Below, in pieces: positions 35,603 to 54,727 of a stretch of DNA of 54,727 bases. Position numbers and translations under genes: made by a program. Position 1 is the first letter of the stretch; each line of letters opens with the position of its first letter. The DNA is from an uncultured Lachnospiraceae bacterium. Lineage in GTDB: Bacteria > Bacillota > Clostridia > Lachnospirales > Lachnospiraceae. Where the stretch lies: assembly GCA_947564735.1 (NCBI GenBank), contig CANOEC010000027.1:1-54727 (forward strand), written 5' to 3'. Below the pieces are notes generated by a model. That model saw only the letters and a program-made list of their open reading frames with translations, had not been told where the DNA came from and searched no databases.

Positions 35603-35764
35603 GACTGACCTCCAGTTCCGTTACCTTTTGCGTGTGCAAAGCAAATGCCGCGGCATACCTTTGTTCGTAATTCCGAAGAAGTCCTTTACACTATCTTAAC
35701 ATGAATATTTATGAGAGTCAAAGCATGTTTCAGCATATCTATAGGAAAAGGGGGAAGAAATGAT

Positions 35765-37675: not shown

Positions 37676-37777
37676 AAATGAATAGACTTTTGGTGTAATA
37701 AGTACTTTGTTTAGGTATATATGGTGTCGAATAAAGAGCTTATTTGTTAGACAATTATAAAATAATAGCAAATTCAG

Positions 37778-37806
37778 TGCTATTTTTAAATAAAATATGA
37801 TATAAT
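37778..37806 (+). promoter_or_regulatory. extended -10 promoter of the DUF6603 gene set
   Basis: TATAAT at 37801-37806 is a perfect -10 box preceded by TGA, giving the extended -10 TGnTATAAT. The -35 area (TGCTAT, 37778-37783) is poor, as is usual for extended -10 promoters. It lies about 175 bases before the first gene of the set, in an AT-rich stretch. Confidence 0.6.
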
Positions 37807-37888: not shown

Positions 37889-37982
37889 TGCAAAATAGCA
37901 AGTAAGTAAGCTTGGACGTGAATTGGAAGCCCATAACAGGATAATGCGTAAGATCTGCATGGACATGGTAAAAGGGAAAATT

Positions 37983-40900
37983 ATGCAGTTAAAAGAGATT
38001 TACGAAAGCATCATAGCAAATGTGACGAAAGAAGGCGGCTTTGTGTTCAGCGGGCAGACGCTTGGGGAAGCAGGGCAGTTTTTGGAAGAATATTTTAAGG
38101 AAGTGACAGGTAGTCCTGTTTTTGAAATGCGTTCTGTTGAGTGCCGTCCGCCGGAGAAAAATCTGGTGGCGGTGTGCGGTACGTGCAATGATGGACAGGT
38201 GAAGGCGGAGGCCGGATTTTTCTGGCAGGCGTCGGCTCTTATGATGGAACTGCGCCTGTCTTTTTTGATGGATATGGATATGGAATTTTTTCCGGGCAGG
38301 ACGCTGCGTACGGGGGAGGCGGTGAAAAAATACCGTTTCCGCATGGATCAGAAAGCAAAGGTTTACCGGTCGCGAAGCGGCGTTTTGCGGGAGGAACTTT
38401 CTTACACACAGTTTCTTGCGCTGTTTTTGGAGGGGCTTGCAGGGGAAGGGGCGTGTTTGGCAGAGGCGGAAGTCTGGCCGGTATTTCGCGGGATGGCGCT
38501 GACGGTGGAGGAAGTATGGGAAGCCGGGATTGATAAAAGGCGAGTCCGGGCGGAATCGGACGCGGTGCTGCGCATCACGGACAAGATCGAAATCGGCGGC
38601 TTGGGCATTGAGGCCGTGCGTTCTGACAAGGCTTACGGGCTGGCATTAAAGGGGAGCATCTTTTTTTGTGAAAAATCGCTTCCGGTAGTTCTACATGCCC
38701 GGGAGAATGAGTTCGTTTTCGGGATACAGGCAAAGAAGGACGATGTGGGGGAACTTGCCCTGAAAGACCTTCTGCAGTTGGTTGATGCCCCGTTTGCAGA
38801 TACAATCCCTGATTATTTTTCGGTGCTGAAAAATCTGCGCCTGCACAGGCTTCTGTTCTTTCTGGATTCCGGTCTGGGAGCGCTCCGGGCGGCAGAGATT
38901 GAAATCACTTCGCTTGAAGCATGGAGATTCCTGGGAGTGGATTGTTTTCAGCTGAGGGATATCCATGTTTCGTTCTCTATGTCCTTCGCGCCGCAGTGTA
39001 CCTGCGTGGCGGAAATTTCGGGCATGCTCTCCGTTGGTTCTTTTGATATAGAATTATGCGGCACAAAGGAGCAGGACGGGTTTACGTTCCGGGGACAGAT
39101 GCCTCAGGATTCGGAGCTGAATCTGAAAACGGTGGTGGAGTTCTTTGCGGAGAGTTTCGGCGTACCGTCCGTGTCCCTGCCGATCCCGGATATTCTGTTG
39201 AAATTTGTTTTTGTCTCCTTCAGCACGTCGGAAAAGAACGGAAAACCGTTCCAACTGTCCGCGTTCGTGGATGTACGGCCGTCGGACGGGCAGGATGATA
39301 TCGCAAAGAAGCTGTTAAATATCGGTGCGCAGATTCAATTGGAATCCGCGCTGCAGGGCGGTGTGCGCACTTACTGCGGCAATCTGAAAGGCGCGGTTGA
39401 GATTGCCGGGCAGGTGTTTACGGTGGCCTATGAATTTGGCCGCCAAAGCGGCAGCCGGATATCGGCGGAATGGAAAAGCGATACGAAGGAATTGTCGTTT
39501 GTCACGTTGCTGGCTGAATTTCAAGTGACGGATGTCCCGGATATTGTTCGGCGCATTTCCATCGGCGTGAATGAGGTGTCCGCTTCTTATGACATCGGGA
39601 AAAAGGAGCTGTCACTGACACTCGTGAGCCGCGGACATGGGCAGTTTTCGGCATATATCTGGAAAGACGGGAAGAATCGCTTCCAGTACGCGCTGGAGCT
39701 TACCTGTATCAAGACGCTGGAATTATCAGACCTGCCCGTCGTAGGAAGGGATTTCAAGCTGCTGGACAACGTCAGGATCACGGGGATCGGTCTGTCGGCG
39801 GCATCCGCAGCCTACGGTGGAATCCGGGTGGGCGCAGGGATCCGGGGTACTGTGGAGGTGGGCGGCGGCCGGTATCCCTTCGAGTTGGAGACGCAGAAAG
39901 ATACGGAGGGGAACGAAGTGGCGGATGCGTATGCGGACGCCGGGGAAACAGTCGGGTTGTATAAATGGTTTCCGGTCAATAAGAACCTAGGGATTTTCTC
40001 GTTTCAAAGGATCGGGGTGACTTATCAGAAAGGGGCTGTCGGATTTTTGCTGGACGCGTCCCTCAGTGCGTCGCCGATCGGGATGGAACTGCTGGGTATC
40101 GGGATGGGTTTTGAGTTGGAAAAGCCGTCTAATGTGCGGTTTTTTCTGTCGGGCATGGGCGTTTCCTATACCAGCCGGACGTTAGTGGTGAACGGCGAAT
40201 TTACCGCCAATGGGGATGCGGGTTATGACGGTGCGCTTCTGGTGAAGATGGCGGGGATTTCGCTGTACGCGGTCGGTTCCTATCAGGCAAAGTCCCTGTT
40301 TGCCTATGCGCTGCTGACCGGAAAGATCGGCGGTCCGCCGGCGTTCACTGTGACAGGCATTGCGGGCGGATTCGGTTATAACCGCAGCTTAAGGCTGCCA
40401 GCGGTGGAAGATGTGGGGCAGTTTCCGATGATCCGGGCGGCGGTCGGCGGACTGGACAAAAGCGCCATGATTACGGAGCTGGAGCGGTATGTCACAGTGG
40501 CATACGGGACAAATTTTTTGGCGGCGGGCGTGAAGTTTAATTCTTTCCAAATGATAGATTCGTTTGTCCTGTGCACGGTTTCTTTCGGGAACAGGCTGGA
40601 GATCGGGCTGCTCGGGTTGTCGGAGATCTCGGTGCCGGCTAATACCGGGGCGGCGCCGATTGCCTATGCCCAGCTTGCGCTGAAAGCGGTTTGTGTGCCG
40701 GATGAGGGTATTGTGTCCGTTATGGCGGAATTGACGAGGGAGTCCTATATCCTGTCAAAGGCATGCCATCTTACGGGCGGTTTTGCCTTTTATTTGTGGT
40801 TTGGGGGCAGTCACAAGGGGGATTTTGTGATTACCCTTGGCGGGTATCATCCGGCCTATCGGAAACCGGAGCATTATCCGTCGGTTCCAAGACTGGGATT

Positions 40901-42038
40901 CCGGTGGTGCGTGACACCGGAACTGACGTTCAGTGGAGAACTGTATTTTGCGTTGACACCTCGCTGCCTGATGGCGGGCGGCGCATTGGATGCCGTTTAC
41001 CAGTCCGGGGATCTGCGGGCATGGTTTAGCGCACGGGTGGATTTCCTGCTTGGATGGAAACCGTTCTACTATGAAGCTTCGCTTTATATCGGCCTAGGGG
41101 CTTCCTATCGGCTGTTTCTGCTGTTCGGGTACGTGACGATCAGTGCGGAGCTGTCGGCCGATTTGCATATCTGGGGGCCGGATTTTTCCGGGGAGGCCAG
41201 AATTACTTGGTTTATCATCTCCTTTACGATTCGGTTCGGGCATTCAAAAAACGAAAAAAAATACCTTGTGTGGGATGAGTTTGAGAAATCTTTTCTTGTA
41301 TCAGGGAACAGGAATTTGTCTGCGGATGCCGGTCTGGCGCCGCAGGAGAGGAAAATCCATGCGGTATCCTACACGGCCGGCCTGCTTCGGCAGTCGGAAA
41401 CGGAAGGCGTGTTTGTGGATCCGGAGGCGCTTCGGATCTGCGTCCGCTCCCAAGTGCCGGTCACGGAACTGAAGGTAAACGGCAAAAATCAGGAAGTGCC
41501 GCCGACGCCTCTTGGCGTGCTGCCCATGGGAGAGAATAAGAGGCTTAAATCGTCCTGCAAGGTCAGCGTGACAGACAGCGCAGGGCGGCAGCAGGACATG
41601 AGGTCGGCGTGTGTGAGGGAGAACGTCCCGACAGCGATGTGGGGGCTGTCCGAAACAGGGATGAACGGAGCCGGACTTGTGGAACAGGCCTGCGTCGGAG
41701 TCAGTCTGTCCCCGATTGTAAAGCAGGAATATAATATGCTCCCGTCCGAAGGCTGGCTTCATACGGAGGATCTTGATTTCAGAATCGACAGGACTTTTGC
41801 GTGGAATCATCCAAAGCCTTTGTCCGGCCCGGACTATCCGCAGCAGGATACCATAGCGGCGTTTGCCGGCACGGTGGACGCGGAGGGGACAAGGAAGACA
41901 AGAGAAGAGATGCTGTCACAGTGGCGGGAGATTGGGGTTTTATTTGATATTGATAAGGAAAAGATCGGCCTGCAAAAGCTGGCAAAGCGGGCGCAGGATT
42001 TGTTTACGGAGGATATTCGGCTGCAGACAATGGTGTGA
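37983..42038 (+). CDS. giant DUF6603-like protein
   Basis: The protein has 1351 residues. ATG 37983 is chosen because AAAGGG lies 6 bases before it; in-frame starts from TTG 37923 exist. The region from about residue 640 to 1090 matches what I recall of DUF6603, with many amphipathic beta-strands and motifs such as GGPPAFTVTGIAGGFGYN, MAGISLYAVGSY and LWFGGSHKGDFVITLGGYHP. Residues 1-640 are also beta-rich with repeated 70-90 residue units. The C-terminal ~260 residues look like a separate beta domain. There is no signal peptide and no long hydrophobic helix. Function is unknown. The alternating polar/apolar strands suggest an extended beta-sheet groove or shell. It is the first gene of a seven-gene co-directional set. 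Confidence 0.75.
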   Translation: MQLKEIYESIIANVTKEGGFVFSGQTLGEAGQFLEEYFKEVTGSPVFEMRSVECRPPEKNLVAVCGTCNDGQVKAEAGFFWQASALMMELRLSFLMDMDMEFFPGRTLRTGEAVKKYRFRMDQKAKVYRSRSGVLREELSYTQFLALFLEGLAGEGACLAEAEVWPVFRGMALTVEEVWEAGIDKRRVRAESDAVLRITDKIEIGGLGIEAVRSDKAYGLALKGSIFFCEKSLPVVLHARENEFVFGIQAKKDDVGELALKDLLQLVDAPFADTIPDYFSVLKNLRLHRLLFFLDSGLGALRAAEIEITSLEAWRFLGVDCFQLRDIHVSFSMSFAPQCTCVAEISGMLSVGSFDIELCGTKEQDGFTFRGQMPQDSELNLKTVVEFFAESFGVPSVSLPIPDILLKFVFVSFSTSEKNGKPFQLSAFVDVRPSDGQDDIAKKLLNIGAQIQLESALQGGVRTYCGNLKGAVEIAGQVFTVAYEFGRQSGSRISAEWKSDTKELSFVTLLAEFQVTDVPDIVRRISIGVNEVSASYDIGKKELSLTLVSRGHGQFSAYIWKDGKNRFQYALELTCIKTLELSDLPVVGRDFKLLDNVRITGIGLSAASAAYGGIRVGAGIRGTVEVGGGRYPFELETQKDTEGNEVADAYADAGETVGLYKWFPVNKNLGIFSFQRIGVTYQKGAVGFLLDASLSASPIGMELLGIGMGFELEKPSNVRFFLSGMGVSYTSRTLVVNGEFTANGDAGYDGALLVKMAGISLYAVGSYQAKSLFAYALLTGKIGGPPAFTVTGIAGGFGYNRSLRLPAVEDVGQFPMIRAAVGGLDKSAMITELERYVTVAYGTNFLAAGVKFNSFQMIDSFVLCTVSFGNRLEIGLLGLSEISVPANTGAAPIAYAQLALKAVCVPDEGIVSVMAELTRESYILSKACHLTGGFAFYLWFGGSHKGDFVITLGGYHPAYRKPEHYPSVPRLGFRWCVTPELTFSGELYFALTPRCLMAGGALDAVYQSGDLRAWFSARVDFLLGWKPFYYEASLYIGLGASYRLFLLFGYVTISAELSADLHIWGPDFSGEARITWFIISFTIRFGHSKNEKKYLVWDEFEKSFLVSGNRNLSADAGLAPQERKIHAVSYTAGLLRQSETEGVFVDPEALRICVRSQVPVTELKVNGKNQEVPPTPLGVLPMGENKRLKSSCKVSVTDSAGRQQDMRSACVRENVPTAMWGLSETGMNGAGLVEQACVGVSLSPIVKQEYNMLPSEGWLHTEDLDFRIDRTFAWNHPKPLSGPDYPQQDTIAAFAGTVDAEGTRKTREEMLSQWREIGVLFDIDKEKIGLQKLAKRAQDLFTEDIRLQTMV

Positions 42039-42115
42039 GGGCGTTATTTTGCACACCCGCGTCATACACCTGCCGTATGGTGTCGCAAAGGCGGCCGGAA
42101 GGAGGGGGACAACAG

Positions 42116-43516
42116 ATGGAATTTCAGAATATCAGACTTTTGCGGGCAAAGCTCCCCGACCTGGCGGCCGGAACCTATACCGTACATGTGGAACAGGATG
42201 TGCAGGAGCCGGAAAACAGAACGCTGCCTTCGACGGATAGTGTGTTTCATGTCGGTGCCAGAAGGTTTGGCATGGAGCAGGGACTCATACACTCGGTTTA
42301 TCCGCCGGCGGACAGCAACGGCTGTTATAAGGAGACGCTGCCTCATATGGTGTGCAGCCAGGCATCATTTCCATGGCTGCGCAGGATGTATGACGGACAG
42401 AAGGACGATACGGTACCTTTTGTGGCGTTAATTTGTCTGGTGGAAGGCGAGGATTTTCAGGAGGGGCAGGCGGCCATCGGCCAGCTTGTGAAGCCTGGAG
42501 CCGACGATCCTTACTTTCCCCCGTGTGATTTGGAAGGTATGGTGGGGGAAAAGGCGGAGGATATTTGTAGTTTTGTGGATATTGATGCCGCCCTCTGCGC
42601 GGAAATCCTGCCCAGGGAGGAGGAGTTAGCTTGTCTTGCGCATGTGCGGGTTACCAGTCTGTACGATAAGTCGGATTCCCTGATTTCGCAGGACGGAAGT
42701 TTTTCGGTGGTCGTCTGCAACCGGTTCCCGGAGTCTCCGTCGGGGGAAAGCAGGAGAAATTATGTCTTTCTGGTGTCTATGGAAAACTACCACGGTCATC
42801 TGCCGGAGGGGGAAAAGTTTGCGGAGGTGACGGCAAGGAAAAGGGCGCGGTTTATTGTGCTTCATAAGTGGGCTTTCGAATCGACGGCAGGGGATACGCC
42901 GGGTTTTTCGCATATTATGAAGAATCTGGATGTGGGGGCCTTTGCCCTCCCGAAGACGGGGAAGGAGAATGAGGCGTCAAAAATCGCGGAGCGGGGCTAT
43001 GTTCCCCTCGTACACCTGACAAGGACGGGGGAGAAGACGGTATCCTTTTACCGCAGCCCCCTTGTGCCCTGCAGGACGGAGGTGTTTCCGTATAAGGAAT
43101 GCCATACAGCGGACGGTGAGATTCGTTATGATCCGGAAATAGGCATGTTTGATATGACTTACGCAGCTGCATGGCAGATCGGACGGTTTATGGCTATGAC
43201 GGATCAGGAAATTGCCCGCCAGATTTATTTATGGCGGCGCAGCGTCGTCACAAAGATGCACAGAAGCCTAGAAAGAGCACGGATGCTGTCAGCCTTTCGC
43301 GGATGCGCTGCGGTGGAACGGGGGAAGGAGAGGGGGAGCGCACCGCAAGGTTTTCTGTGGTATCTTGCGCAGAAGGATTCGGTTCTTGGTCTGTTAAGGC
43401 AGGAAGAAAATATGGGGGATCGAAACGGGCTTGCGCGGGCCGGGCTGGAATGGATGCGGGACGTGTCGGCGGGAGAGCGGATTATGGCTGAGAGCGGATT
43501 GGAGGCAAAAGAATGA
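42116..43516 (+). CDS. large conserved protein of unknown function in the DUF6603 gene set
   Basis: The protein has 466 residues. ATG 42116 is set by GGAGGGGG 7 bases upstream; an open frame reaches back to 42035 but lacks a ribosome site. It starts with a beta-rich segment (RLLRAKLPDLAAGTYTVHVE) that recurs in form as FHVGARRFGMEQGLIHSVYPPADSNG. It continues with LPHMVCSQASFPWLRRM, which looks like a conserved surface motif. The C-terminal third is helical and Arg-rich (IARQIYLWRRSVVTKMHRSLERA). I see no catalytic motif, signal peptide or membrane segment. The gene ends in an ATGA overlap with the next, so the pair is translationally coupled. I cannot assign a named family. Confidence 0.65.
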   Translation: MEFQNIRLLRAKLPDLAAGTYTVHVEQDVQEPENRTLPSTDSVFHVGARRFGMEQGLIHSVYPPADSNGCYKETLPHMVCSQASFPWLRRMYDGQKDDTVPFVALICLVEGEDFQEGQAAIGQLVKPGADDPYFPPCDLEGMVGEKAEDICSFVDIDAALCAEILPREEELACLAHVRVTSLYDKSDSLISQDGSFSVVVCNRFPESPSGESRRNYVFLVSMENYHGHLPEGEKFAEVTARKRARFIVLHKWAFESTAGDTPGFSHIMKNLDVGAFALPKTGKENEASKIAERGYVPLVHLTRTGEKTVSFYRSPLVPCRTEVFPYKECHTADGEIRYDPEIGMFDMTYAAAWQIGRFMAMTDQEIARQIYLWRRSVVTKMHRSLERARMLSAFRGCAAVERGKERGSAPQGFLWYLAQKDSVLGLLRQEENMGDRNGLARAGLEWMRDVSAGERIMAESGLEAKE

Positions 43517-44349
43517 AGAAGGCGGAGTTATACACGTATCTGGAAGGACAGGACGCGGCGGACGAGCTGCCGGAAACAGTCAGGCTCTGGCTGGCGGATA
43601 AGTACCAGATGTGTGGCGTTCCCTTTCGCTATCTGGTGCCGGACGAGGGGCTCCTGCCGCCGGAATCCATCCGGTTCTTTTATATGGATAGAAACTGGTC
43701 GGACGCTATGGCGGCAGGGGCTCTCAGCATCGGTCGGCAGACCGGACCGGATGCGGCGGTGAACGGGGCGGTGTATCCGCTGCTCGTCTCGCAGGCTGTT
43801 TCCCGGCTGCCAAAGCGCAGGCTTACAATGATGCATGAGAATCATCTGCGGGAGGAACTGCGTATGAACGGCGTTGTGTTATCGGAAATAATCGGGGAAG
43901 ACGCGGTGTTGTCAGGGTTTCTTCTGCGGTCATGTCTGGTGCGGTACTGGAAGGGAGTGGAGGTGGGAGGATATGAGAAGCAGGAGAAGCGGCATATCCT
44001 GAGAATGGACACGCTGTCCGCGGAGATTCTTTTCTGTCTGTTTGACGGGGAGATTGACCGTGTTCTCATCCGGGAACCGGCAGAGGAGCTTCATTTCGGG
44101 GTATCGGATGTATGCCGGGGGTCGGCGGACAATCGGGTCAGAGTCCGCAAAATCGCCGGGCAGGTCGGAGAATACAGCGGGGCGGAGGCAGCGCTGGCGG
44201 TAAACGATAAGGGAAGGGCGGATATCGGAAGTTTTACGCGGGCAGTGCAGGATGCGCTTGGCAGCGGGGCGGGGACGGTGTATTCGGCGGAACTGGCCTT
44301 GCAGCTTCTCTCATCGGGGGATTGTTGCGAAATCAAAAACGAAGGGTAG
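43513..44349 (+). CDS. conserved protein of unknown function in the DUF6603 gene set
   Basis: The 278-residue protein starts at the ATGA overlap, with GGAGG upstream. A striking motif is VPFRYLVPDEGLLPPESIRF with FYMDRNWSDAMAAGALSIGR. This has the look of a conserved structural core rather than an enzyme site. The middle is mixed alpha/beta (RMDTLSAEILFCLFDGEIDRVLIREPAEELHFGV), and the C-terminus is helical (SFTRAVQDALGSGAGTVYSAELALQLL). No family name is recalled. It is separated from the next gene by 7 bases. Confidence 0.65.
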   Translation: MKKAELYTYLEGQDAADELPETVRLWLADKYQMCGVPFRYLVPDEGLLPPESIRFFYMDRNWSDAMAAGALSIGRQTGPDAAVNGAVYPLLVSQAVSRLPKRRLTMMHENHLREELRMNGVVLSEIIGEDAVLSGFLLRSCLVRYWKGVEVGGYEKQEKRHILRMDTLSAEILFCLFDGEIDRVLIREPAEELHFGVSDVCRGSADNRVRVRKIAGQVGEYSGAEAALAVNDKGRADIGSFTRAVQDALGSGAGTVYSAELALQLLSSGDCCEIKNEG

Positions 44350-44356
44350 GGTTAAT

Positions 44357-47300
44357 ATGGGCTATTTGCTTGTACCGATTGCAGTGGAAGCGTTTGTTGC
44401 GAACCGGCATAATGAAAAGGAAAAGTGGATCAGCGATGTGATGCCGGACTTCACCGCGCTGTCTGACACTATTTTGGGGGATAATCTGCAAAAACCGCCA
44501 TTTTCCTTACAGGAACCTCTGGAAGCGGGGGTACATATTCATTTTATTCTGCCGGATGCCCTGACCCATGGAACGGAAGAGGAGGGTACTTTCCGGTATC
44601 CGGATATTCCCGACCGCTGGCTGGTGGTGCGGATATGGCAAAAGTCCATGGAGCCGGCCTTTGCGCTGGCTGCGTGGCTGGTGGAAAGTGATTATGTGGG
44701 GATGGAGGAAACGCATGTCCCTGCACCGGACCTTAAGGACGGGGAACAGCCATACCGTTATATGGGGCGCTGCTACAGGCTTGGCGAAGAGCCGGAAAAG
44801 GGGACCTATCTGGGCGGATTGACTGTGTTTGGACCGGGGGATCCTTCCTTTGCGGCTTATTATCCGAACTGCAGGGGCGTGCTGGGCTTTCATGACCCGC
44901 TGGAGGATGTGCCTTACGGCACGTTGTCCTATTTTGTGGCTGGCTGGTACGGCAGCGGGACGGACCCCATGGTACGGTTGGACGTCGGATCATGGCAGAG
45001 TAAGATGGAGGAATTCGCATGGAAGGTTTCAGGTGCGCCGGAGACGGATGAGTATGGGCGTGTGTGCAGCCGGATCCTGTGCCATGGATTGGCATGCGGC
45101 GTGGAGTGGAGAGGTCCCGAGGCGTCCTACGACGACGGCAGGCCGAAGGGACATGTCGCCGTCACTGTGGGGGATACTTCGACAGAGGCGCTCTCCGCGC
45201 TCATGGCATCCAAGCTGGAGGGCGGGAATCCGCAGGATATGGAGTTTTTATTGAATGCGCTGCAGTACGGCTGTCTGGAGCTTGCCGATGAAATCGACGG
45301 CAGGCAGAAAATCGGAGATGTGATACAGAGTGCGCGTTTTTCCGGTGATCGCGCCGGGGAACAGTGGGAGCTTGCGGCGGATGAGAAGGCGGGGCCGCTG
45401 ACGGATGAGAGCCGTCTTTTGTACGGCGCCCTGACAGAGAGGCAGGAGGAAGTCAACCGCTGGGCAAGGGATTATGATTCGCTCAAGCAGCGGCTTTACG
45501 ACGTGTGGCACACTTATTTTCTCCTGTATGAGGATCCTTGTTTCACCCCGGCGGGGAGTCCCTCCAGGGAGGCGCTCTACTCCCTTTTTCAATCCCTCTG
45601 TAAAGAGCTTGAAAGCGAACGGGAACGGGGAGAGGAACTGGGCGAAAGACGGGACGCCGCGAAGAAGGCGCTGCGGTCTGCCCTCTCCAAAAGTGACGGT
45701 TCCTATCGGATAGAGAACATACCGGCAAAGGAATACGGGCAGTGTGTTCCGCCAGTGCTGCTCTTCAGCGGGGAAGGTCTGCGGCGAGGGTTTGTATACG
45801 GGGAGGACGGACGTTTTGACAAGGAAAATAAGCTGCGCTGCCGTTTCTTTGGCGAGACCGTAAAGTCTTTGGACGTGCCGGTGCGGACATCTTCAGGAGA
45901 AGAAATAGCGACTGTTATTGGCAAAACGGAGCTGTTGGCATTCTGCAAAGGGGTGTCTTTGCCGGAGGATATGCACAGTCTTTTGTGCGAGTCCCTGCTC
46001 TTGGATACTTCCTCGGCTGAAACCTTGGCGGCGGCCGCTTACCGGCTGGCAGGCATTGCCTGTGGGGAAGCGCAGGTGGAGGAGCTTGCCGGCCGGATCA
46101 GGAGGATGCAGGCCATACCTTGGAGCGGTTTGGTTCGCAGGGAGAGTGGAGCCGGGGAACAGAACGGGCAGAAACTTGCCGAGCGGTGCGGGTTTCAGGG
46201 TACCTTTCCGTCCAAGGTGGCGGTGAATTTTTATGAGCCGTCCATGAACACGCTGTTTTTGGAGTGGAAGGTCATGTTTTATCCGACGAAGACGGACGGC
46301 CAGGCGGAATACGCCCTGCCGGGCTGGAAGTTTGGCGGCACGGACTACGTATATGACGGGGCCGGGGCCGGTACGCCTGCGATGTATATGGGGCGGACGG
46401 TGGTCACGCCGCATTCCCAGCGCATTTTTCAGGCGGCCCTGAAAAAGCAGGCCGGGCAGTGCGGGGATACGGAGCTTAAAAAGAAGCTGGAGCAGGCGGG
46501 GGAAATGCTGGAGGATCTGTGCCTGCTCTCCCAGAGTCTGGACGGCTTTTTGCAGAACCTGACGGGACGGCAGCCAAGTCCCAGGTTTCCCTATATGATT
46601 ACGAGTAAGGATCTTGCAAAGGATCGGATGGCGGCAGAAATGACGCTGGCGGTGAAAAAGTATCTGCAGGATTTTCCCGCTGTCCCGGCTATGGATTCCG
46701 ACCGCTTCTTTCCCATACGTGCGGGGTTTTTAAAGATACAGGAAATACAACTGGTTGGTTCCTTCGGACAGAGACAGGTGGTTACGGCGGATTTCGATAC
46801 GGTATCATGTACCGCAGATATGCGGCCGCCGGCGGGCGTGGAGGCGGACGCGGTTTTGAAGCCAAGGATATCCCAAGGCGGGTGTGTTTCGGCGGTGTGG
46901 ATGCCTGCGGGCAAGGAAGCGGTCTCCCCGGTCTGCGGCTATGTCATTCCCGACAGATGGAACCACGGGCTGATGGTGTACGATGCGGAAGGGGTCAGGC
47001 TCGGGAACCTGCAGCTCGTATGGAGAGAGGGAAAGTCTTTTTGCCGCTGGCAGCCGATTCCGCTGGCGGACGGACGGGAAATCGTGGATGTGGACGGTTT
47101 CCAAAATGAGGATCTGAAAGGTTTTGCAAAGGCGCTTCTGCGTACCGGGGAAGGGGTTTTTGGCGGATTCCTCCAGTCGATTGAGGACAGACAGGACAGA
47201 ACGCTCCCGGAGGACGTAAGCAACAGTGCGGAAGAATCCCTGCTTGGCGGAAGACCGATGGCTCTTGTGCGGGCGGGTGTCTCACTGTCGCTGAAGGGGC

Positions 47301-47863
47301 TGCCGGAATATCGGAAAAACGCCGGGAATCCGGGTGAGTTTGACAGCGGGGGGTTTGAGGAGGCTTGGTTTGGCGTGGCGGTGGGTGATCCTTCGCGCTG
47401 CTATGAGGGATGCGTTAGATGTTTTGTGGGAACGGACAGAAAGACTATGTACGATGTCGGGTACCACTGCGGCCACATGCTGCGAGTGAAGCACGATGGT
47501 ATCCCGGTCCAGATGGCGCTTCTTGTGGATCCTGCGTCCCCGGTGACCTTTTATACGGGGACTTATCCGGCCGTACGGTTGAAACTGCCGGAGGAATGTT
47601 ATAAAGATGCTTGCGGACGTATGTATAAGAGCACCGCGCTTTACCCGCTCCTCGGCACGGCGGAAGGGGTACGCCTGCCTGTGCCTGAAGCGGCAGGCGG
47701 GCAGTGGAGCCTGCTTTGTCCGAAACAGGCAGGCGGATATACGAGGAACCGCATCCTGCCGGATCTACCGGCCTTTGCGGAGGAGGGGCTGTGGATACTG
47801 GAAGGACAGTTAACGGAAGGAGAAGGGCATGGGCAGGACACTGATCTGTCAGTCAGTTCCTAA
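44357..47863 (+). CDS. giant conserved protein of unknown function in the DUF6603 gene set
   Basis: The protein has 1168 residues from ATG 44357 (MGYLLVPIAVEAFVANR); upstream in-frame codons lie within the previous gene. The N-terminal part has a conserved-looking motif, GVHIHFILPDALTHG and IPDRWLVVRIWQ. A helical, coiled-coil-prone segment spans about residues 355-445 (SLFQSLCKELESERERGEEL). A second helical stretch lies near residue 700-740, and beta-rich parts make up the rest. There is no membrane segment, signal peptide or recognised enzymatic motif. It overlaps the next gene by 35 bases. Confidence 0.65.
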   Translation: MGYLLVPIAVEAFVANRHNEKEKWISDVMPDFTALSDTILGDNLQKPPFSLQEPLEAGVHIHFILPDALTHGTEEEGTFRYPDIPDRWLVVRIWQKSMEPAFALAAWLVESDYVGMEETHVPAPDLKDGEQPYRYMGRCYRLGEEPEKGTYLGGLTVFGPGDPSFAAYYPNCRGVLGFHDPLEDVPYGTLSYFVAGWYGSGTDPMVRLDVGSWQSKMEEFAWKVSGAPETDEYGRVCSRILCHGLACGVEWRGPEASYDDGRPKGHVAVTVGDTSTEALSALMASKLEGGNPQDMEFLLNALQYGCLELADEIDGRQKIGDVIQSARFSGDRAGEQWELAADEKAGPLTDESRLLYGALTERQEEVNRWARDYDSLKQRLYDVWHTYFLLYEDPCFTPAGSPSREALYSLFQSLCKELESERERGEELGERRDAAKKALRSALSKSDGSYRIENIPAKEYGQCVPPVLLFSGEGLRRGFVYGEDGRFDKENKLRCRFFGETVKSLDVPVRTSSGEEIATVIGKTELLAFCKGVSLPEDMHSLLCESLLLDTSSAETLAAAAYRLAGIACGEAQVEELAGRIRRMQAIPWSGLVRRESGAGEQNGQKLAERCGFQGTFPSKVAVNFYEPSMNTLFLEWKVMFYPTKTDGQAEYALPGWKFGGTDYVYDGAGAGTPAMYMGRTVVTPHSQRIFQAALKKQAGQCGDTELKKKLEQAGEMLEDLCLLSQSLDGFLQNLTGRQPSPRFPYMITSKDLAKDRMAAEMTLAVKKYLQDFPAVPAMDSDRFFPIRAGFLKIQEIQLVGSFGQRQVVTADFDTVSCTADMRPPAGVEADAVLKPRISQGGCVSAVWMPAGKEAVSPVCGYVIPDRWNHGLMVYDAEGVRLGNLQLVWREGKSFCRWQPIPLADGREIVDVDGFQNEDLKGFAKALLRTGEGVFGGFLQSIEDRQDRTLPEDVSNSAEESLLGGRPMALVRAGVSLSLKGLPEYRKNAGNPGEFDSGGFEEAWFGVAVGDPSRCYEGCVRCFVGTDRKTMYDVGYHCGHMLRVKHDGIPVQMALLVDPASPVTFYTGTYPAVRLKLPEECYKDACGRMYKSTALYPLLGTAEGVRLPVPEAAGGQWSLLCPKQAGGYTRNRILPDLPAFAEEGLWILEGQLTEGEGHGQDTDLSVSS

Positions 47864-49310
47864 TGTGATTTATCTAAGCAGACAGGAAAAGACTTACACA
47901 AACAGTTTTACGCTGAGTCTCACAGGCGCGGAGGCGTGCGGCACTGTCCGCAGAGATGCGGAAAGGACAGGGCAGGCTGTGTCTCCCCGCGTGACGATTC
48001 AGTGCGAGTGGGATAATGAGGAGAGCAGTCTCTGTTGTTTGGAGGACGCGAAAGATATCCGGGTGAGCTGTGAGGGATGGAAACCCCGGTGGAAACGCAC
48101 AGGGTGGGAGATTGAACCGCCCCAGGGCGCGGATCTGTCGAAGGGGTTTTCCGTGCCGCTCTATTTTGACAATGTGGTGGCAAGGCTGCGGGAGGGGACG
48201 GCGGTTCTTCACGTGACGCTCCACTCTTTTCCAGGCTATGAGGAGGAAGCGCCCTTTACCGCTGTGGTGGAACGCAGGTACGCGCTGTGCGTGGAGCACT
48301 TTAGGAGCGATAGGCAGAAAGTGGAGCGCGGTGGCTGCTGTATTCTGGACTGGCGGGTGGTAAACAGCTCCGCCTGTTTTCTGGACGGTGCGCAGGTGAA
48401 GGCGGAGGATTCCCGCACCGTGTCTCCGACGGCGGACCCGCAGAACTTTATACTGCTTGCGCAGAATGCGTACGGCGCGGTCGTGAACAGCACTTTGCAG
48501 GTGAACCTCACAAATTGGAGTGCTGTCGGGACGGCATGTCAGGGCAGCCTGCCGCTTAAGGAGGATCCGTGCGCATCTAATGCGGAAATCTATGGGTGTG
48601 GGGGAAAGTATTATACGTTTGCCGCCGGATCATTATATGGGACAGCGGATATGGAAGAACCGGATTGGAGGAAGCTGACCGGTCCTGAAGCAGCCGCGGC
48701 GGATTATGGCCTGTATACCTGCCTGTGCACGGAGGAGGGCTTTCTTGTGATTTGCCGCGGCGTGCAGTATCTTTATTCCTTTCAAGAAGGGAAATGGGAC
48801 AGTGTGGAGAATATGCTTACCTATGGGGAAGGCAGGGTGTGCAGGGCGGTTTTGTTTCAGGGAGAGCAGGTGTACGCGTCCGCTTATACAAAGAATATGC
48901 TGATTTTGTCTTGCTATGACAGGCAGCGGCAGGAATGGGATAACAATTATTTTCTGGATGCGGGCGGGGAGATTGCGGACTTCGACCTCATTGAATTTCA
49001 GGGGAATATCTATGCCGCGGTGCAAAAAAAAGAGGGGGATATCGTGATCTACAGAACGGAGGATCTGGAAGTCTGGAAACAGGTGGATGTGGCGGAGGGC
49101 AGCGTGTGGTTTCGGCTGCTTGCCTGCAAAAGGCGGCTGTTTCTGATCCGGAAGGAGGGAATCCTTGATCTGGAGGGAGGAAGCCTGTATCAGGATTTTC
49201 CAGATTTATCAAAGGCTGGCGGTATCCGTGTCTGTATGATGTCTGACCGTGTTTATCTGGTCTGGCCCGATGAAGGGGAGCGGATTAACAGCCTGCGGTT
49301 CAGACCGTGA
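47829..49310 (+). CDS. Ig-like plus beta-propeller-like protein in the DUF6603 gene set
   Basis: The 493-residue protein starts within the end of the previous gene, after GGAGAAGGG. Residues ~155-225 (GGCCILDWRVVNSSACFLDG to TVSPTADPQNFILLAQNAYG) match a bacterial Ig-like fold pattern in which a W strand, a turn and a PTA.. segment recur. Residues ~245-490 contain repeated strand units (FLVICRGVQYLYSFQEGKW, NIYAAVQKKEGDIVIYRTED, RRLFLIRKEGIL) that look like blades of a beta-propeller. Neither part shows catalytic residues. It probably serves in binding or assembly. Confidence 0.6.
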   Translation: MGRTLICQSVPNVIYLSRQEKTYTNSFTLSLTGAEACGTVRRDAERTGQAVSPRVTIQCEWDNEESSLCCLEDAKDIRVSCEGWKPRWKRTGWEIEPPQGADLSKGFSVPLYFDNVVARLREGTAVLHVTLHSFPGYEEEAPFTAVVERRYALCVEHFRSDRQKVERGGCCILDWRVVNSSACFLDGAQVKAEDSRTVSPTADPQNFILLAQNAYGAVVNSTLQVNLTNWSAVGTACQGSLPLKEDPCASNAEIYGCGGKYYTFAAGSLYGTADMEEPDWRKLTGPEAAAADYGLYTCLCTEEGFLVICRGVQYLYSFQEGKWDSVENMLTYGEGRVCRAVLFQGEQVYASAYTKNMLILSCYDRQRQEWDNNYFLDAGGEIADFDLIEFQGNIYAAVQKKEGDIVIYRTEDLEVWKQVDVAEGSVWFRLLACKRRLFLIRKEGILDLEGGSLYQDFPDLSKAGGIRVCMMSDRVYLVWPDEGERINSLRFRP

Positions 49311-49336
49311 GGCAGCTTAGAAGAGGAGGGATGGCA

Positions 49337-50896
49337 TTGTCTTTTTTGTTTCGTTATATTATGGCGCGGGATGAGGCGTATCCGGGGGAGCAGGTGGCGG
49401 TGACGGAACTGATGGAGCAAACTATATGCGAACAGTTTGATGATTTCCGTATTTCCTATACAGGTATCCAGAGAGGCGAGAGGGCAGTCTGTGTGGAGAG
49501 CGATGCGTTTCCCAGCACGCTGCCTTTTGAGACAGAGAGGACGCTTGAGGAGCTGGAGTCTGTGCTAGCGGCCGTGGGGGTCACGGATGTGGTGGTTTAC
49601 TGTGAGGGATCCTATTACGGCATTGTGGTGGATTATCAGAACTGGAACGGGGAATTGACAGGCGACGAGGAAGTCTTGGGAGATACAAAGGTACAGATTG
49701 AACTGGTTCCTGCAAATTGTGTAGGCGAGGAAAGTTCCCAATGGCTTTACCTGCAGCTTGATGCGGCGGAGCTGGAGAATATGGCGGTTTCCAATTGGTA
49801 TGGGATTACATTTTACTATATGGCCTCGGAAGAGCAGCTCATGCTCCATGCGCAGGTACAGGGCTGGCGGTTTGCGTATCTGCCGGAAGCGGAACAGTAT
49901 GAGGTCTGCTCCTATAGGATACTGAGAGATGGGGAGCAGGAGCGGTTGCAGGATGCGTACAGGATCAATTCTACCCTGAACGTGGGAGAGGAGACGGAAT
50001 GCCGGAGTGTAAGCAGAATCGGTCCTGACACGGGATTTGTGAAGGCGGTGATTTATGATGTGGGGCAGGCTCTGTGCGTCGGCATTTTTGAAGCTTTCAG
50101 TTATGACAAGGGACAGCCTGTGCAGGAGAGACTGGCGGCATTTTTTGACTTCGGCCTGCCCTATACCGCTGGGAGGCCCAGAGTGAGAGCCGCAAGAGAT
50201 TACTGGATCATCCGCACGGAAATCATGAACTTCGTAAACGGATATGGCTTGGGGAGCGAGACGAGGGACCACATCCACATCGTACTGTCCCATTGGCATC
50301 TGGATCATTGTATACTGGCGCAGCTTCTGACGACGGAGCTTGCGCATACGGTATGGCATGTGCCCTGTGACGGGCTGGGGCCGTCCGCACTGAGGATACG
50401 CAACCACATTGAGGCAAACGGCGGAAAGGTGGAAGCTGTGGTGGGACCCTTTGACGCGTTGAGTTTGATGGGCAATGGGAATCTGCGGTACGGCAAAATT
50501 GATTTTGGGTTTAAGCGTCATCCGGTTCCGGCAGTCGTAAGGGCATCGAGGCACCCGCATCATCACGGGATGTATATGATCGTGGAACTGATAAGCGGCA
50601 GTAAGCTGTTTCTGGGAGGCGATTGTACATATGCCGGGATCAATGCCAGACTGAAAGCGAAAGGGTTTACCCATCTGCAGGCATCCCATCATGGCGGCAA
50701 TTATGCATTGGCTCCGGCGGCAAGGAATTGGAAGGATATACCGTGTCCGGCGGGAAACGGGGGAGTCCTAATCTGTTCCTGTGGACCGTACGCGCAACAG
50801 CACCATCCGAACCAGGCAGTCCTGACTGATCATAGTAACGCCGGGTGGGCGAGACTGCATGTGACGGATAACAGCGGTGGGTATACGGTTCGATAA
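49337..50896 (+). CDS. metallo-beta-lactamase-fold hydrolase with long N-terminal extension
   Basis: The protein has about 519 residues. The C-terminal ~240 residues form a metallo-beta-lactamase fold. The metal motif is HWHLDH (His319, His321, Asp323, His324 in this numbering), followed by Asp429 in FLGGDC and His451/His452 in ASHHGGNY, as in ComEC-like hydrolases. Residues 1-~230 are a beta-rich extension of unknown family. The start is unsure: GAGGAGG at 49323-49329 is too close to ATG 49331 and fits TTG 49337 better, while GTG 49307 overlaps the previous stop. It would hydrolyse a phosphoester or ester; the substrate is unknown. A long antisense open frame here is a shadow. Confidence 0.8.
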   Translation: MSFLFRYIMARDEAYPGEQVAVTELMEQTICEQFDDFRISYTGIQRGERAVCVESDAFPSTLPFETERTLEELESVLAAVGVTDVVVYCEGSYYGIVVDYQNWNGELTGDEEVLGDTKVQIELVPANCVGEESSQWLYLQLDAAELENMAVSNWYGITFYYMASEEQLMLHAQVQGWRFAYLPEAEQYEVCSYRILRDGEQERLQDAYRINSTLNVGEETECRSVSRIGPDTGFVKAVIYDVGQALCVGIFEAFSYDKGQPVQERLAAFFDFGLPYTAGRPRVRAARDYWIIRTEIMNFVNGYGLGSETRDHIHIVLSHWHLDHCILAQLLTTELAHTVWHVPCDGLGPSALRIRNHIEANGGKVEAVVGPFDALSLMGNGNLRYGKIDFGFKRHPVPAVVRASRHPHHHGMYMIVELISGSKLFLGGDCTYAGINARLKAKGFTHLQASHHGGNYALAPAARNWKDIPCPAGNGGVLICSCGPYAQQHHPNQAVLTDHSNAGWARLHVTDNSGGYTVR

Positions 50897-50961
50897 CAAA
50901 AAGGGCACGGGTTCCAAAAAGCGGGATCAAGCGTGTTTCAGAAAAAAGAAAGGGGAAGCGA

Positions 50962-53900
50962 ATGGAAGGAAAGTTTAGGACGATTGGAAATTTGATGGCT
51001 GGGCGGGCCGGCAGGACGGAACTTGATCTGGCCAATGCGGAGCATAGGGAGGCGTTTTATCATCATCTGGGTGTCACGGGGGAAGTGCAAAAGGACAGGA
51101 TGAAAGAAAAATATCCGGCGCTCTATCAGGCAATAGAAGGCTTTTGCGCGTGTACGGCAAAGAATGCGGCACCGAAAGATGATTATCAGGATAAGTATAC
51201 GCTGCGTGCGGAACAGGTAAAATCCGAAGGCGGTGCCGATGATAGTATTAAATCCGTGGCGGAGGCGAGTACGCTGGAACAGAAAGAGTTCATTGGGGTC
51301 AGAGTGGATGTGTACAACGAAAAAGAAGACAAGGAACATCAATATCCGGTTTATACGGATGACAACTTTGAATGCAGTACCCAGAAATTGCTGGCTGACT
51401 TTATGTCGGGTACAGTTATTGTGGATGAGCCGACGCCCTTTACCGCGGTTGCCACATACATGGTGGTGAATCGTGACGGCAGCCTTGCCGCGCCGATATG
51501 CATACCGGTGGGTCTGGGGGTCAGTAACAATACGATAGTCAATGAAAAGAAAGCGTACCACCCGAAACGTCTCTACTCAAAAACACCGGGACAGTGCATC
51601 GTATGTTATAACAGGGAGGCAGCGCCGAGTGACAAGGCGGATTATTCTTATAGCGACGTGATTGTCAAGAAGGAGGAAGGCAAGCAGTGGCTGAGCGTGC
51701 ACCTGCCCTTTGCCGGGTATATCAAACTAAATCCCCAATTCCGGTTTCTTCAGTTTATGGACCAGCAGACGGAGATTATGATCAGCATCAAGGGGCAGGA
51801 GGGAGCCTGCAGTTATCCGGATAAGGACGTATTCAAAAATGTTTTTAAAATAAAGGACGATGTGCTTTACTGGAACTTTAAGGAAGACAGGGAATTGGGG
51901 AAGATCGAAGACAGTTTTCCGAAAAAGACAGGCGGTTATGATTATGAAAACTGGAATAACACGCTGTTGGCGGAGAGGGTGAGCAACAATGTGCTGGTTT
52001 CCTTCTATGCCAAAGTGGCATTTTCCGTATGTTTAGCGAGTGATGAGAGCGGAAAAAATCCAATTCCCCACCATGTGCTCTTTTGTTCTGATGCCATCAG
52101 CGGCACAGGCAGCGTGGAAAAGATGGATTATATCTGCCTTTGGTGGGGCTGTCTGGGGGAGAATACAAAAGTACGGATGGCGGACGGTTCAAAGCGTCCC
52201 ATCCGTGAAATTGGCCAGGGAGATAAAGTGAAACTGGAGGATGGGCGCGAGACGGTGGTGGATGCGGTGCTGTCCGGCAGGGAGGATACGGTGGTACATA
52301 TTGTTACGCAAAAGCATGAGCTTCTGGCCAGCAGTATGCATCCTGTTCTGACAGATAGGGGGCTTGTCCGGGCGAAAGATTTGAACGCGGCGGACCGGAT
52401 CGCCACGGAGGACGGGTATGAAAGTGTGCAGGGCGCTTATGAGGAGGCCTATCGGGGCATGGTGTACAACTTACAGCTAAGGGAGCCGGGAAATTTGATT
52501 GCGGATGGGATGATCAGCGGTGACTTTGATGCCCAGCAGTCAGAGCTTCCCTATGAGCGGGAGCCGGAGGAGTGGAAGCCTTATTATCCCAGTCCCGTGG
52601 CGGACGACCTTGCCATGCTGCTTGCTCATAGGAGGCCGCAGCAGTGTAACGCGGCGGAAAATATGGCGGCGAAACCATACTATGCCTGCCGGTTCGCGGA
52701 TGAGGAGGGCGGCAGCGCCGTACTGAAACTGAAAGGCACCGGGGCACTCGGGGACGGGCCGTTGTGTCTGGAGTTCTGGATGTATATTGAGGGGGAGAGC
52801 CGGGAACTCTTTTCGCAGGAAAGCGGATTCCGGATTCAGGCTGACGGAAACGAGCTGGTCATTATGGCGGATGAAGCACATGTCTATACCGTGCGCTTTC
52901 AAGTACCTCTTCGCGGGGCGTGGAACCAGATATTCCTTGCCAGCGACGGACAGCAGCTGCATGTCGGCATCAACGGCTTCGAGACAGACAGCTTTGCCCT
53001 GGAAGGAAGGCTTCTCGATCCGGACTGCGATCTGGTGATCGGGCGGCATTTCACCGGGTATATACGCAGGATTATCCTATACCGCGCATACATTGAGACC
53101 GGCGTTCTGCGGCGGCGGATGTTCCAGAATATCTGTTCGGGAGACATGGAACATCTGGCGGCGTTTCTCGACGGCATCGCGGAAACGCTTAAGGATGTCG
53201 GACCGTACAGGCTGAAAGTGCTTCGCGGCGCATCCTGTCATAGAGTTGCCGCTGTTGGAGGCTTTGTGCCCGCAAAGGGGCATGGGGCTAGTCTCCCCAA
53301 CGGCCGTGTGCGGCTTACAGGGAAGGAGCGATCGGATTTCAGCGTATACGTCAAATGTTATATCCTGCCTCACGGCGGCGCCAAATCTGTGCTTTGGTCG
53401 AATGGTGATTTTCACCACCCAGGCGCGGTATGGCTGTACTTTGAGGGAGAGTCGGAATTGAAAATCAAATATGGGGATACGGTCTATGAGGTGGGCATAC
53501 AGGCGGACTCCGGCACGTGGCAGGATCTGATCGTGACCTATGACGCCTCATCACGCAGGCTGTCCGTGTATCAGAACGGCGCTTTGACGGGCGATTTCTT
53601 TTCCGTGGAGCCTCTGCATGGTATGCGGGAGAACAGTTTCTGCGTGGGAAACGGATGGGACGGCGTGCGGGATTACCCGGCGGCTGCCCTGTTTACCACG
53701 GCGGCGGTGTACCATGAGCCCATGGGAGGACAGAAGGCGGCGCAGCTGTATGTTTCCCAGCCCTTTGTGCTGGATCCGCAGCTTGCGGTCCTGTTTGGGT
53801 TTGAGAACGGAAACGGGATGGAATATTTGTCCGGGCAGCAAATCTTTGCGGCTGGGGACGAGTGGACGGTCTGCCCCGATATCAGTACCTATCCGTTGTC

Positions 53901-54357
53901 CGCGGAACATTACTGGTATGACATTGGCGTGGAGACGGCCGGGTACAGCCCGGACGCGGAGAAAGTCTTTATGCTGTTTTCCGTTTATATGAAAACGATG
54001 TTCGGGATTGCCACGGACTCCATGAATGAAGAGTACACGCAGGCGGTCTGCTGGTATATGGAAAAAAATCTGCTGGACCAGCCTTGCATAGGGCAGGCGC
54101 TTGCGGGGAACACCGAGGATAATATCCTGTGCGGCGTCATCCGGGAATTTCATGAGGATATGGAGAAGCTGCTGAACCTTACCTACGCGAACCATCCCTA
54201 TAACAGGGTCAAAAGCAGGATGGCGGATAAGATGGGGATCAATTCGGTTCTGGCAAGTGTCGGCGCGATCGTTGGAGCGGGAGAGTACGCGGTGGACTTT
54301 GAGCCGGAGGCGCTTGCGGAGACATTTGAAGAGATGCGGCATGTGCTGTATCGGTGA
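50962..54357 (+). CDS. Hint-domain and double LamG-like giant protein
   Basis: The 1131-residue protein has AAAGGGGAAG before the ATG. Residues 1-390 are a beta-rich domain of unknown family. A Hint (hedgehog/intein) domain spans about 397-515: Cys397 opens it (GCLGENTKVRMADGSKRPI), His460 is in the SSMHPVLTDRGL block, and GNLIADGMISGD with Asn511 closes it. Two LamG-like concanavalin folds follow, about 575-715 and 780-935 (FSVYVKCYI, SGTWQDLIVTYDASSRRLSVY). A helical C-terminus of ~150 residues ends in a DMEKLLNLTYANHPYNRVK-type helix pair. The Hint domain ends in Asn-Leu, not Asn-Cys/Ser/Thr, so it is not a splicing intein; self-cleavage is more likely. It is the last gene of the set. Confidence 0.82.
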   Translation: MEGKFRTIGNLMAGRAGRTELDLANAEHREAFYHHLGVTGEVQKDRMKEKYPALYQAIEGFCACTAKNAAPKDDYQDKYTLRAEQVKSEGGADDSIKSVAEASTLEQKEFIGVRVDVYNEKEDKEHQYPVYTDDNFECSTQKLLADFMSGTVIVDEPTPFTAVATYMVVNRDGSLAAPICIPVGLGVSNNTIVNEKKAYHPKRLYSKTPGQCIVCYNREAAPSDKADYSYSDVIVKKEEGKQWLSVHLPFAGYIKLNPQFRFLQFMDQQTEIMISIKGQEGACSYPDKDVFKNVFKIKDDVLYWNFKEDRELGKIEDSFPKKTGGYDYENWNNTLLAERVSNNVLVSFYAKVAFSVCLASDESGKNPIPHHVLFCSDAISGTGSVEKMDYICLWWGCLGENTKVRMADGSKRPIREIGQGDKVKLEDGRETVVDAVLSGREDTVVHIVTQKHELLASSMHPVLTDRGLVRAKDLNAADRIATEDGYESVQGAYEEAYRGMVYNLQLREPGNLIADGMISGDFDAQQSELPYEREPEEWKPYYPSPVADDLAMLLAHRRPQQCNAAENMAAKPYYACRFADEEGGSAVLKLKGTGALGDGPLCLEFWMYIEGESRELFSQESGFRIQADGNELVIMADEAHVYTVRFQVPLRGAWNQIFLASDGQQLHVGINGFETDSFALEGRLLDPDCDLVIGRHFTGYIRRIILYRAYIETGVLRRRMFQNICSGDMEHLAAFLDGIAETLKDVGPYRLKVLRGASCHRVAAVGGFVPAKGHGASLPNGRVRLTGKERSDFSVYVKCYILPHGGAKSVLWSNGDFHHPGAVWLYFEGESELKIKYGDTVYEVGIQADSGTWQDLIVTYDASSRRLSVYQNGALTGDFFSVEPLHGMRENSFCVGNGWDGVRDYPAAALFTTAAVYHEPMGGQKAAQLYVSQPFVLDPQLAVLFGFENGNGMEYLSGQQIFAAGDEWTVCPDISTYPLSAEHYWYDIGVETAGYSPDAEKVFMLFSVYMKTMFGIATDSMNEEYTQAVCWYMEKNLLDQPCIGQALAGNTEDNILCGVIREFHEDMEKLLNLTYANHPYNRVKSRMADKMGINSVLASVGAIVGAGEYAVDFEPEALAETFEEMRHVLYR

Positions 54358-54487: not shown

Positions 54488-54673
54488 ATGGCCAAATATC
54501 GAGAGATTCTGAGATTGTCAAATCACGGTCTCAGCCAGATGCGGTGTCCCCAAGAAAACGGTCAATCGCGGGCTTGTCAACTCGACACTAATTTACCATT
54601 AAAATTGCATGGGCTTAGCACTAATTTACCATGCTATCCACGAAATTATGCGGATTTCCGGGGTTTTCATTAA
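54488..54673 (+). pseudogene. remnant of IS21-family transposase gene istA
   Basis: After an intact AAGGAGGG site, the frame encodes MAKYREILRLSNHGLSQ, the characteristic start of IS21 IstA helix-turn-helix proteins. It then shifts: another frame near 54546-54585 encodes VPKKTVNRGLVNS, the expected continuation (normally SCGVPKKTV), so part of the motif has been deleted. Within 100 bases the sequence passes into terminal-repeat-like DNA (54586-54632). The element is therefore internally deleted, with istB absent. Confidence 0.65.
54586..54632. mobile_element. tandem terminal repeats of a deleted IS21-type element
   Basis: CACTAATTTACCAT occurs at 54586-54599 and again at 54619-54632. IS21-type elements often carry such short repeated motifs near each end, where the transposase binds. 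Its presence just after the broken istA start indicates that a right end has been joined to a left end by deletion. Confidence 0.5.
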
Positions 54674-54727
54674 AAAAAGTCTGCAAATAAAAGTCAAGCA
54701 GAAATTGAAGAACTTTGAAAATTTTAT

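Follow-up and report, generated by a model that had tools for sequence, protein, structure and literature searches.

The window analysed here, by which the whole stretch of DNA is meant, is a complete 54,727-base contig from the 4.5 Mb draft genome of an uncultured Lachnospiraceae bacterium. It carries seven large genes, labelled A to G, which occupy positions 37983-54357, all on the plus strand, and which an initial annotation had interpreted as a single system built on a DUF6603-like giant protein. The coordinates and common orientation that were reported there agree with the list of open reading frames (ORFs), as do the two overlaps, ATGA at 43513 and 35 bases at 47829. The features of the locus are the following.

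37676..37708, no strand assigned: left edge of the insertion, where the DNA match to relative G013 stops (blastn)
37798..37806, plus strand: extended -10-like element (TGATATAAT; TG-A-TATAAT) upstream of A, recognised by eye
37983-42038, plus strand: A, DUF6603 protein of 1351 amino acids (aa), ATG start, core
42116-43516, plus strand: B, 466 aa, core, not placed in any known family, conserved beside A across phyla
43513-44349, plus strand: C, 278 aa, core, ATGA overlap with B, fused to B in many relatives
44357-47863, plus strand: D, 1168 aa, core, probable central coiled coil
47829-49310, plus strand: E, 493 aa, fibre-like slot, 35-base overlap with D
49307-50896, plus strand: F, 529 aa, ComEC-like metallo-beta-lactamase (MBL)-fold hydrolase, assigned from its motifs
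50962-54357, plus strand: G, 1131 aa, with an N-terminal domain, a Hint domain (about 396-520) and a LamG-like C-terminus

The reading frame of A extends upstream of the listed start and is open from a TTG at 37923. A recognisable promoter had been proposed in front of A, of which the extended -10 element was found by eye, whereas no plus-strand promoter was called upstream of A by a consensus scan and no good -35 was seen by eye to accompany the element. A simple hydropathy scan detected no signal-like or membrane-like segment and no hydrophobic N-terminus in the seven proteins, and Pfam searches returned neither a nucleoside triphosphatase (NTPase) among them nor, anywhere in the operon, a match to sheath, tube, spike or baseplate families, in keeping with the earlier statements that signal peptides, membrane anchors and contractile parts are lacking.

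The constancy of the first four genes came to light when the DUF6603 portion of A was used to search a collection of genomes. This search recovered 70 loci; with the window, L012 and L015 these amount to 73, of which 72 are distinct, since L012 and L021 are the same contig. Using profiles for B, C and D seeded from eight, seven and eight sequences, respectively, all four genes were found together in 67 of the 73 loci, and in the six incomplete ones (L032, L065, L067, L068, L072 and L078) either the contig or the fetched stretch stops close to A or C. B and C form one protein in many loci, D precedes A in some and lies on the opposite strand in others, and the linkage is nonetheless kept. The same 7 of 61 genomes, the source genome included, contain each of DUF6603, B and D, and among 398 genomes from the phylum, DUF6603 and C each occur in the same 2. 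Moreover, the distances in the core gene trees correlate with r of 0.79-0.91 (Mantel p 0.001 in all six pairs), as calculated over 63 of the 73 loci, with L012, L015 and partial hits omitted; alignments A6, A7 and A8 retained 65 of 67, 63 of 66 and 56 of 68 rows, near-identical Streptomyces sequences being dropped from all and short or poor ones from A8 as well. A, B, C and D are thus encoded together and, to judge from these sequence comparisons, inherited as one unit. That unrelated genes merely lie together by chance could be argued from F, G and parts of E, which vary between loci; for A-D this explanation is refuted by the linkage in 67 of 73 loci and the shared pattern of presence, and because the core gene set recurs across phyla the association is more than chance. 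The core of the system is therefore four genes, A-D, not seven. The idea of seven genes as a fixed unit was rejected, and the mapping of gene neighbourhoods over many genomes that had been suggested as a check upheld one recurrent system across phyla, in which A-D recur together but not all seven families do, E-G being variable.

Protein A is a member of DUF6603, a Pfam family of unknown function (PF20248, E=1.8e-141, 472.6 bits against a cut-off of 27, residues 665-1128), as had been surmised. Its residues 331-660 and 665-1128 display an amphipathic-beta periodicity with z=4.6 and z=4.1 relative to shuffled sequences; such an alternating hydrophobic pattern was found neither in the rest of A nor in B, C or D. 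The pattern far exceeds that of the shuffles, and both segments are read as a sheet with two faces, of the sort that barrels, grooves or sandwiches have. Searches of Pfam, NCBIfam, PADLOC and PHROGs gave nothing significant for B, C and D (best E 0.048), and PDB profile searches with A, B and C gave no match up to E 10. The PDB profile search with D recovered 17 sequences, mostly coiled coils or helical bundles (best E 0.005), around profile positions 355-455, and D probably carries a central coiled coil. Relatives of DUF6603 were absent from 50,697 phage records at E 0.01, and 20 stretches of viral contigs fitted a pattern, none of which was confirmed as a relative. Neither DUF6603 nor PF20248 was mentioned in any open-access paper searched, and looking for combinations of words there yielded nothing either, a scope outside which most subscription papers and all preprints fall.

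The gene following D often encodes an N-terminal region that is read as Ig-like and a C-terminus that varies (58 followers listed). Comparison of these N-termini by hhalign joined two non-Bacillota groups at 94% probability, and the Bacillota group, to which the E protein of the window belongs, aligned with these two at 50% (E=1.6e-4) and 17% (E=0.0015). The C-termini include phage Tail Collar, kelch or other propeller, and LamG modules according to Pfam; in a tally of 46 hand-picked neighbours, most of them taken from 198 listed, Collar was found in 3 (best E 2.6e-21). The E protein of a Nostoc locus (L043), which was outside these 46, matched 81 phage records around residues 340-580, and among the 15 listed, 11 were annotated as tail fibre or collar, 2 as tail protein and 2 as hypothetical. 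By eye, a Spirosoma protein (L065) and two Mesorhizobium proteins (L052) end in the same type of module. Fibre or collar modules, as in receptor-binding proteins of the tail-fibre type, are seen in the E slot of Nostoc and others; the window's E is propeller-like, its sole match being a kelch model at E=0.0048, below the cut-off, and a single-sequence PDB search with it gave no match up to E 1. An Ig/propeller-like fold had been proposed for this protein; its propeller part finds this sub-threshold match, and its Ig-like part is a reading of the N-terminus by eye only.

Five near-identical Streptomyces loci illustrate how the two halves of E behave. Their mean identity is 97% for A, 96% for D and 94% for B (the last in the three loci where gene picking kept B, as ORFs in GC-rich loci were chosen by length and profile), and for E the identity is 94-98% in the first 300 columns but falls to 48, 34 and 31% in the last three bins. 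No such drop at the end of E was seen in two Mesorhizobium loci and in the pair L022 and L023, where tip exchange is less clear. By its sequence, E is a conserved base with an exchanged tip, as recognition fibres look. Since E bears phage tail-fibre modules in other species, the target would lie outside the cell, and the system would not be a purely intracellular assembly. The association of E with the core was also evident within Streptomyces, the genus of L073, in which relatives of E occur in 20 of 295 genomes: DUF6603 was found in 16 of these 20 versus 1 of 20 tested among the 275 genomes without an E match (Fisher p 2e-6). In 14 of the 16, a strong DUF6603 match and the E match lie within 10 kb of each other, and in the other two the matches are weak and unlinked. 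Stand-alone Streptomyces E-like proteins (L130, L131, L133 and L134), from genomes without DUF6603, have repeat-rich stalks and share the end VHGAFR(S/A)DS. That these orphans are fibres of a contractile system was considered and dropped, no sign of one being seen when the genes around four such proteins were inspected, those of three of the four genomes without DUF6603 and of G734.

The protein encoded by F presents the motifs HWHLDH, GGD and SHHGG, corresponding to HxHxDH with downstream Asp/His motifs, and these are conserved in homologues; its Pfam Lactamase_B match is weak (E=1.2), and a single-sequence PDB search gave none up to E 1. In most enzyme-bearing loci the hydrolase gene immediately precedes A; that of the window follows E. 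The identity of this enzyme differs among loci. The F profile recognised MBL proteins in eight distinct loci and Pfam did so in L038, L060 and L066, to which L032 and L035 add homologues; a member of the endonuclease/exonuclease/phosphatase (EEP) family occurs in two Mesorhizobium loci, and a third, by eye, in Nonomuraea; a class 3 lipase stands beside A in Parapedobacter and in a Bryobacteraceae metagenome-assembled genome (MAG), and an MGH1-like glycosidase in one actinobacterial MAG; and a DUF4135 protein takes the enzyme position in L059. F is, on this comparison of sequences, one of several interchangeable hydrolases that accompany the core. Two further observations concern the region in front of A. 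Related proteins precede A in Chitinophaga (L050, 4002-6800) and Caulobacter (L061, 5154-7424); they share a His-rich motif, EWCHL.GHGDGG, that looks nuclease-like by eye, and had no Pfam match up to E 1. A small conserved protein (180-262 aa) lies directly before A in seven Bacillota loci (L015 8802-9590; L029 1995-2537; L034 9360-9935; L039 7062-7619; L047 9333-9896; L080 9390-9950; L086 5931-6533), with an hhalign probability of 98.8% between two subgroups, and none was seen before A in the window.

The strong beta amphipathicity of A and the lipases that adjoin it in two loci are what would be expected if the system handled lipids or another hydrophobic cargo, with A as an amphipathic beta-groove and the hydrolases acting on what it holds. 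However, such a function would leave the MBL and EEP enzymes, the tail-fibre tips and their exchange unexplained, and the surroundings offer it no help: the commonest Pfam families among 104 flanking proteins (the 25 commonest of 120 were listed) are of a general kind, none of them counting more than 5 of the 104. This explanation is quite improbable.

Homologues of G are present in 20 of the 73 loci, all labelled Bacillota or falling with Bacillota, except for L015, which is off the tree, and L020, which has no phylum label. In Pfam, LamG was above the cut-off in the window copy (3.7e-14), Vint was sub-threshold (3.3e-5) and the Hint models were below their cut-offs; a single-sequence PDB search gave three weak matches of intein type. 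The Hint domain begins with WGC (FGC in two homologues), and both the catalytic Cys and the block-B His are kept in 20 of 20. Its end is readable in 19, of which none has His-Asn, 14 have Gln-Asn and 5 have Gln-Gln or Gln-Gly, the window copy having Gln-Gln. With Cys and His kept but the usual His-Asn end missing, the domain points to thioester chemistry, and the window copy probably does not splice. Across three close relatives, G is 37-54% identical in its first six 60-column bins and up to 93% in later ones. Thus, the folds that had been assigned to F and G are supported by motifs conserved in homologues and by LamG, but in the window copy MBL and Hint stay below the Pfam cut-offs. The earlier picture of an intracellular assembly with an autoprocessing subunit survives in part: an assembly is plausible and G, with its conserved Hint residues, looks like an autoprocessing protein, F may act as a hydrolase effector, and a purely intracellular role is disfavoured by the fibre modules of E.

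The distribution of the system suggests that it moves. The 63 rows of the D tree carry labels of Bacillota, Actinomycetota, Pseudomonadota, Bacteroidota, Acidobacteriota, Chloroflexota, Cyanobacteriota, Verrucomicrobiota, Nitrospirota, Thermodesulfobacteriota and Candidatus Walliibacteriota, two rows being unlabelled. The 20 labelled Bacillota rows need one change; because all groups together need 18 versus the least possible 10, transfer of the system between other phyla is likely, although binning errors and paralogues can add to the excess. Five of the plasmid records examined carry the full core, from Paenibacillus polymyxa, Streptomyces clavuligerus, two Embleya and another Streptomyces. 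A distant two-gene form, consisting of A and a long B-like protein, is found on a haloarchaeal plasmid (L093 7633-17801) and a Streptomyces plasmid (L092 11473-23742), where C and D were not recognised by the profiles and the neighbours are genes annotated as DUF2235 and phospholipase D or a gene read by eye as an alpha/beta-hydrolase.

In the window itself, the operon is a GC-rich insertion, missing at that site in the four relatives inspected. Relative G013 shares with the left flank the GGDEF protein, Nth glycosylase, AraC regulator and S8 protease, and its DNA match stops at 37708, 33 bases past the S8 gene, after which it has other genes; G020 and G014 keep Nth, AraC and S8, G023 keeps S8, and the operon is not behind S8 in any of them. 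The GC content is 0.51-0.58 in the operon and mostly 0.44-0.48 in the flank, with 0.36-0.41 at 16-26 kb and 0.50 at 36-38 kb. Past G, the contig stops within a short reading frame (54488-54727), whose beginning resembles, by its motif, that of the IS21 transposase IstA; a mobile element may bound the insertion there, and a search of this tail in plasmids for an insertion sequence gave no match. Farther upstream, a type I restriction (HsdR-like) gene shows up as a pair of overlapping ORFs, 21418-22731 and 22695-24767, that differ in frame and lie in a low-GC stretch (21418-24767). The S8 protease (35711-37675) was rejected as a member of the system, as it persists in relatives without the operon; an S8 homologue is present in only one other locus. 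Its CspB prodomain, the fibre and lectin-like modules, and the fact that 38 of the 63 D-tree rows are Bacillota or Actinomycetota would agree with a cell-attached assembly for adhesion or a coat, for example one associated with spores. Nevertheless, the system also occurs in Pseudomonas, Mesorhizobium, Caulobacter and Nostoc, the hydropathy scan saw no signal or anchor, and the S8 gene stays behind where the operon is missing, which makes this explanation rather improbable.

A second C gene stands alone in the source genome (G000:C10:41581-42703; L098 11582-12703; E=1e-72). Its neighbours on one side are the two genes (533 and 518 aa) also seen after the B-C fusion in G001 (L013), its other side being different, and it is probably the remnant of a second, lost system. 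Such a remnant, together with the patchy occurrence (in 7 of 61 genomes and, within the phylum, in 2 of 398), the likely transfer between phyla, the interchangeable hydrolases and the lack of secretion signals, is also what an intracellular defence against phages or plasmids would leave, in which the core would sense infection via E and activate a nuclease or lipase effector. This is the main rival explanation, and it is unlikely. The seven proteins include no NTPase recognised by Pfam, and their best PADLOC matches were HEase at E=0.0037, in the Hint part of G, and PDC-S05 at E=0.04, in E. A PADLOC scan of 104 of 126 candidate flanking proteins matched 28 families (PglZ, REase_II, mads, AriA and IetS among the 25 listed), none in more than 2 of the 104, so that a clear defence neighbourhood is lacking. 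Surface binding, moreover, is common for the kinds of module that form the tips (phage tail-fibre, LamG and propeller).

Some known systems share part of these properties. Extracellular contractile injection systems (eCIS) and R-tailocins have exchangeable cargo and a body without signal peptides, as the system described here would. Tc toxin complexes are made of very large co-encoded proteins that carry an enzyme cargo without contraction, as is proposed for this system; however, none of the seven proteins had a Pfam match to the TcA, TcB or TcC families, a comparison by sequence only. The eCIS and tailocins are described as being assembled in the cytoplasm, released by lysis and directed by tail fibres (PMC10598620). 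Cytoplasmic assembly and release by lysis, both proposed here from the genes, and fibre-type recognition would be common to these and the present system, which differs in that sheath, tube, spike and baseplate families found no match in its operon. With no match to the sheath (PF04984) or eCIS_core (PF13699) families in the source genome, the system is not one of the known contractile ones. An accessory cargo of a contractile injection system might still be suspected, given that eCIS_core was matched in 11 and the sheath in 17 of 32 host genomes, and that the Paenibacillus plasmid has annotated baseplate genes upstream. Yet the source genome lacks both matches, the sheath was also matched in 3 of 14 control genomes, and sheath, tube and baseplate are not among the 25 commonest Pfam families of the flanking proteins; this explanation is disfavoured as highly improbable. 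On the Paenibacillus polymyxa plasmid (L089 454-5449, 14389-22508), genes annotated as phage baseplate and DUF4280 precede the core by about 9 kb, and pentapeptide and GH-E nuclease genes fill the interval.

The umbrella toxin particles of Streptomyces are large and non-contractile and combine lectins with variable toxins, and UmbA and UmbB have Sec signals and UmbC has a twin-arginine translocation (TAT) signal and ALF repeats (PMC11062931). A large non-contractile particle, which is proposed here from the genes, lectin-type modules and variable enzymes would be points in common. The window proteins differ in having no hydrophobic N-terminus in the hydropathy scan and no ALF among their Pfam hits, and since the umbrella components carry Sec/TAT signals and ALF repeats, the system is not taken for an umbrella particle.

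The explanation favoured here, tentatively and with a probability of roughly 0.42, is a contractile-free particle assembled in the cytoplasm that would recognise another cell and carry or deliver a hydrolase; co-inheritance and tip exchange are read from the sequences, and the mechanism is inferred. In this model, the co-inherited A-D would assemble into a body in the cytoplasm, to which A, as a long two-faced beta-sheet protein, could contribute a barrel, groove or shell. The N-terminal region of E would dock on this body, and its exchangeable tip (collar/fibre, propeller or LamG) would bind the target. The accompanying enzyme, encoded mostly directly upstream of A and in the window by F behind E, would be the cargo. 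The Hint domain of G would cut itself during maturation, more like hedgehog than by splicing. Because secretion signals and secretion genes in the operon are lacking, release would occur by lysis.

Several results weigh against this particle. No lysis or immunity gene was recognised, and the flank tally, confined to the commonest families, could miss a rare lysis gene. Many loci have no recognised enzyme. The tip of the window's E is propeller-like, not a collar, and the link between its N-terminus and the fibre-bearing E proteins is an hhalign probability of only 50%. Furthermore, the Collar match of the Nostoc protein is weak in Pfam (E=0.029), the Streptomyces E proteins match no phage, and E-like proteins occur without DUF6603 in 4 of 20 Streptomyces genomes. 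Shared descent, finally, contributes to the correlation between the core gene trees.

It is possible, though somewhat doubtful, that these loci encode a new class of cell-targeting particle, with a body of four linked proteins unrelated to phage tails, phage-type tips and interchangeable hydrolases, horizontally spread over at least 11 bacterial phyla and, in the distant two-gene form, a haloarchaeon. If so, it would add a type of protein machine for reaching other cells beside contractile systems, Tc toxins and umbrella particles, and one with representatives among Lachnospiraceae, soil actinomycetes, rhizobia, pseudomonads and a cyanobacterium. Should the proposed mechanism prove wrong, the core would still be a well-defined and directly testable unit, made up of four families of large proteins whose function is unknown and which are inseparable from phylum to phylum.

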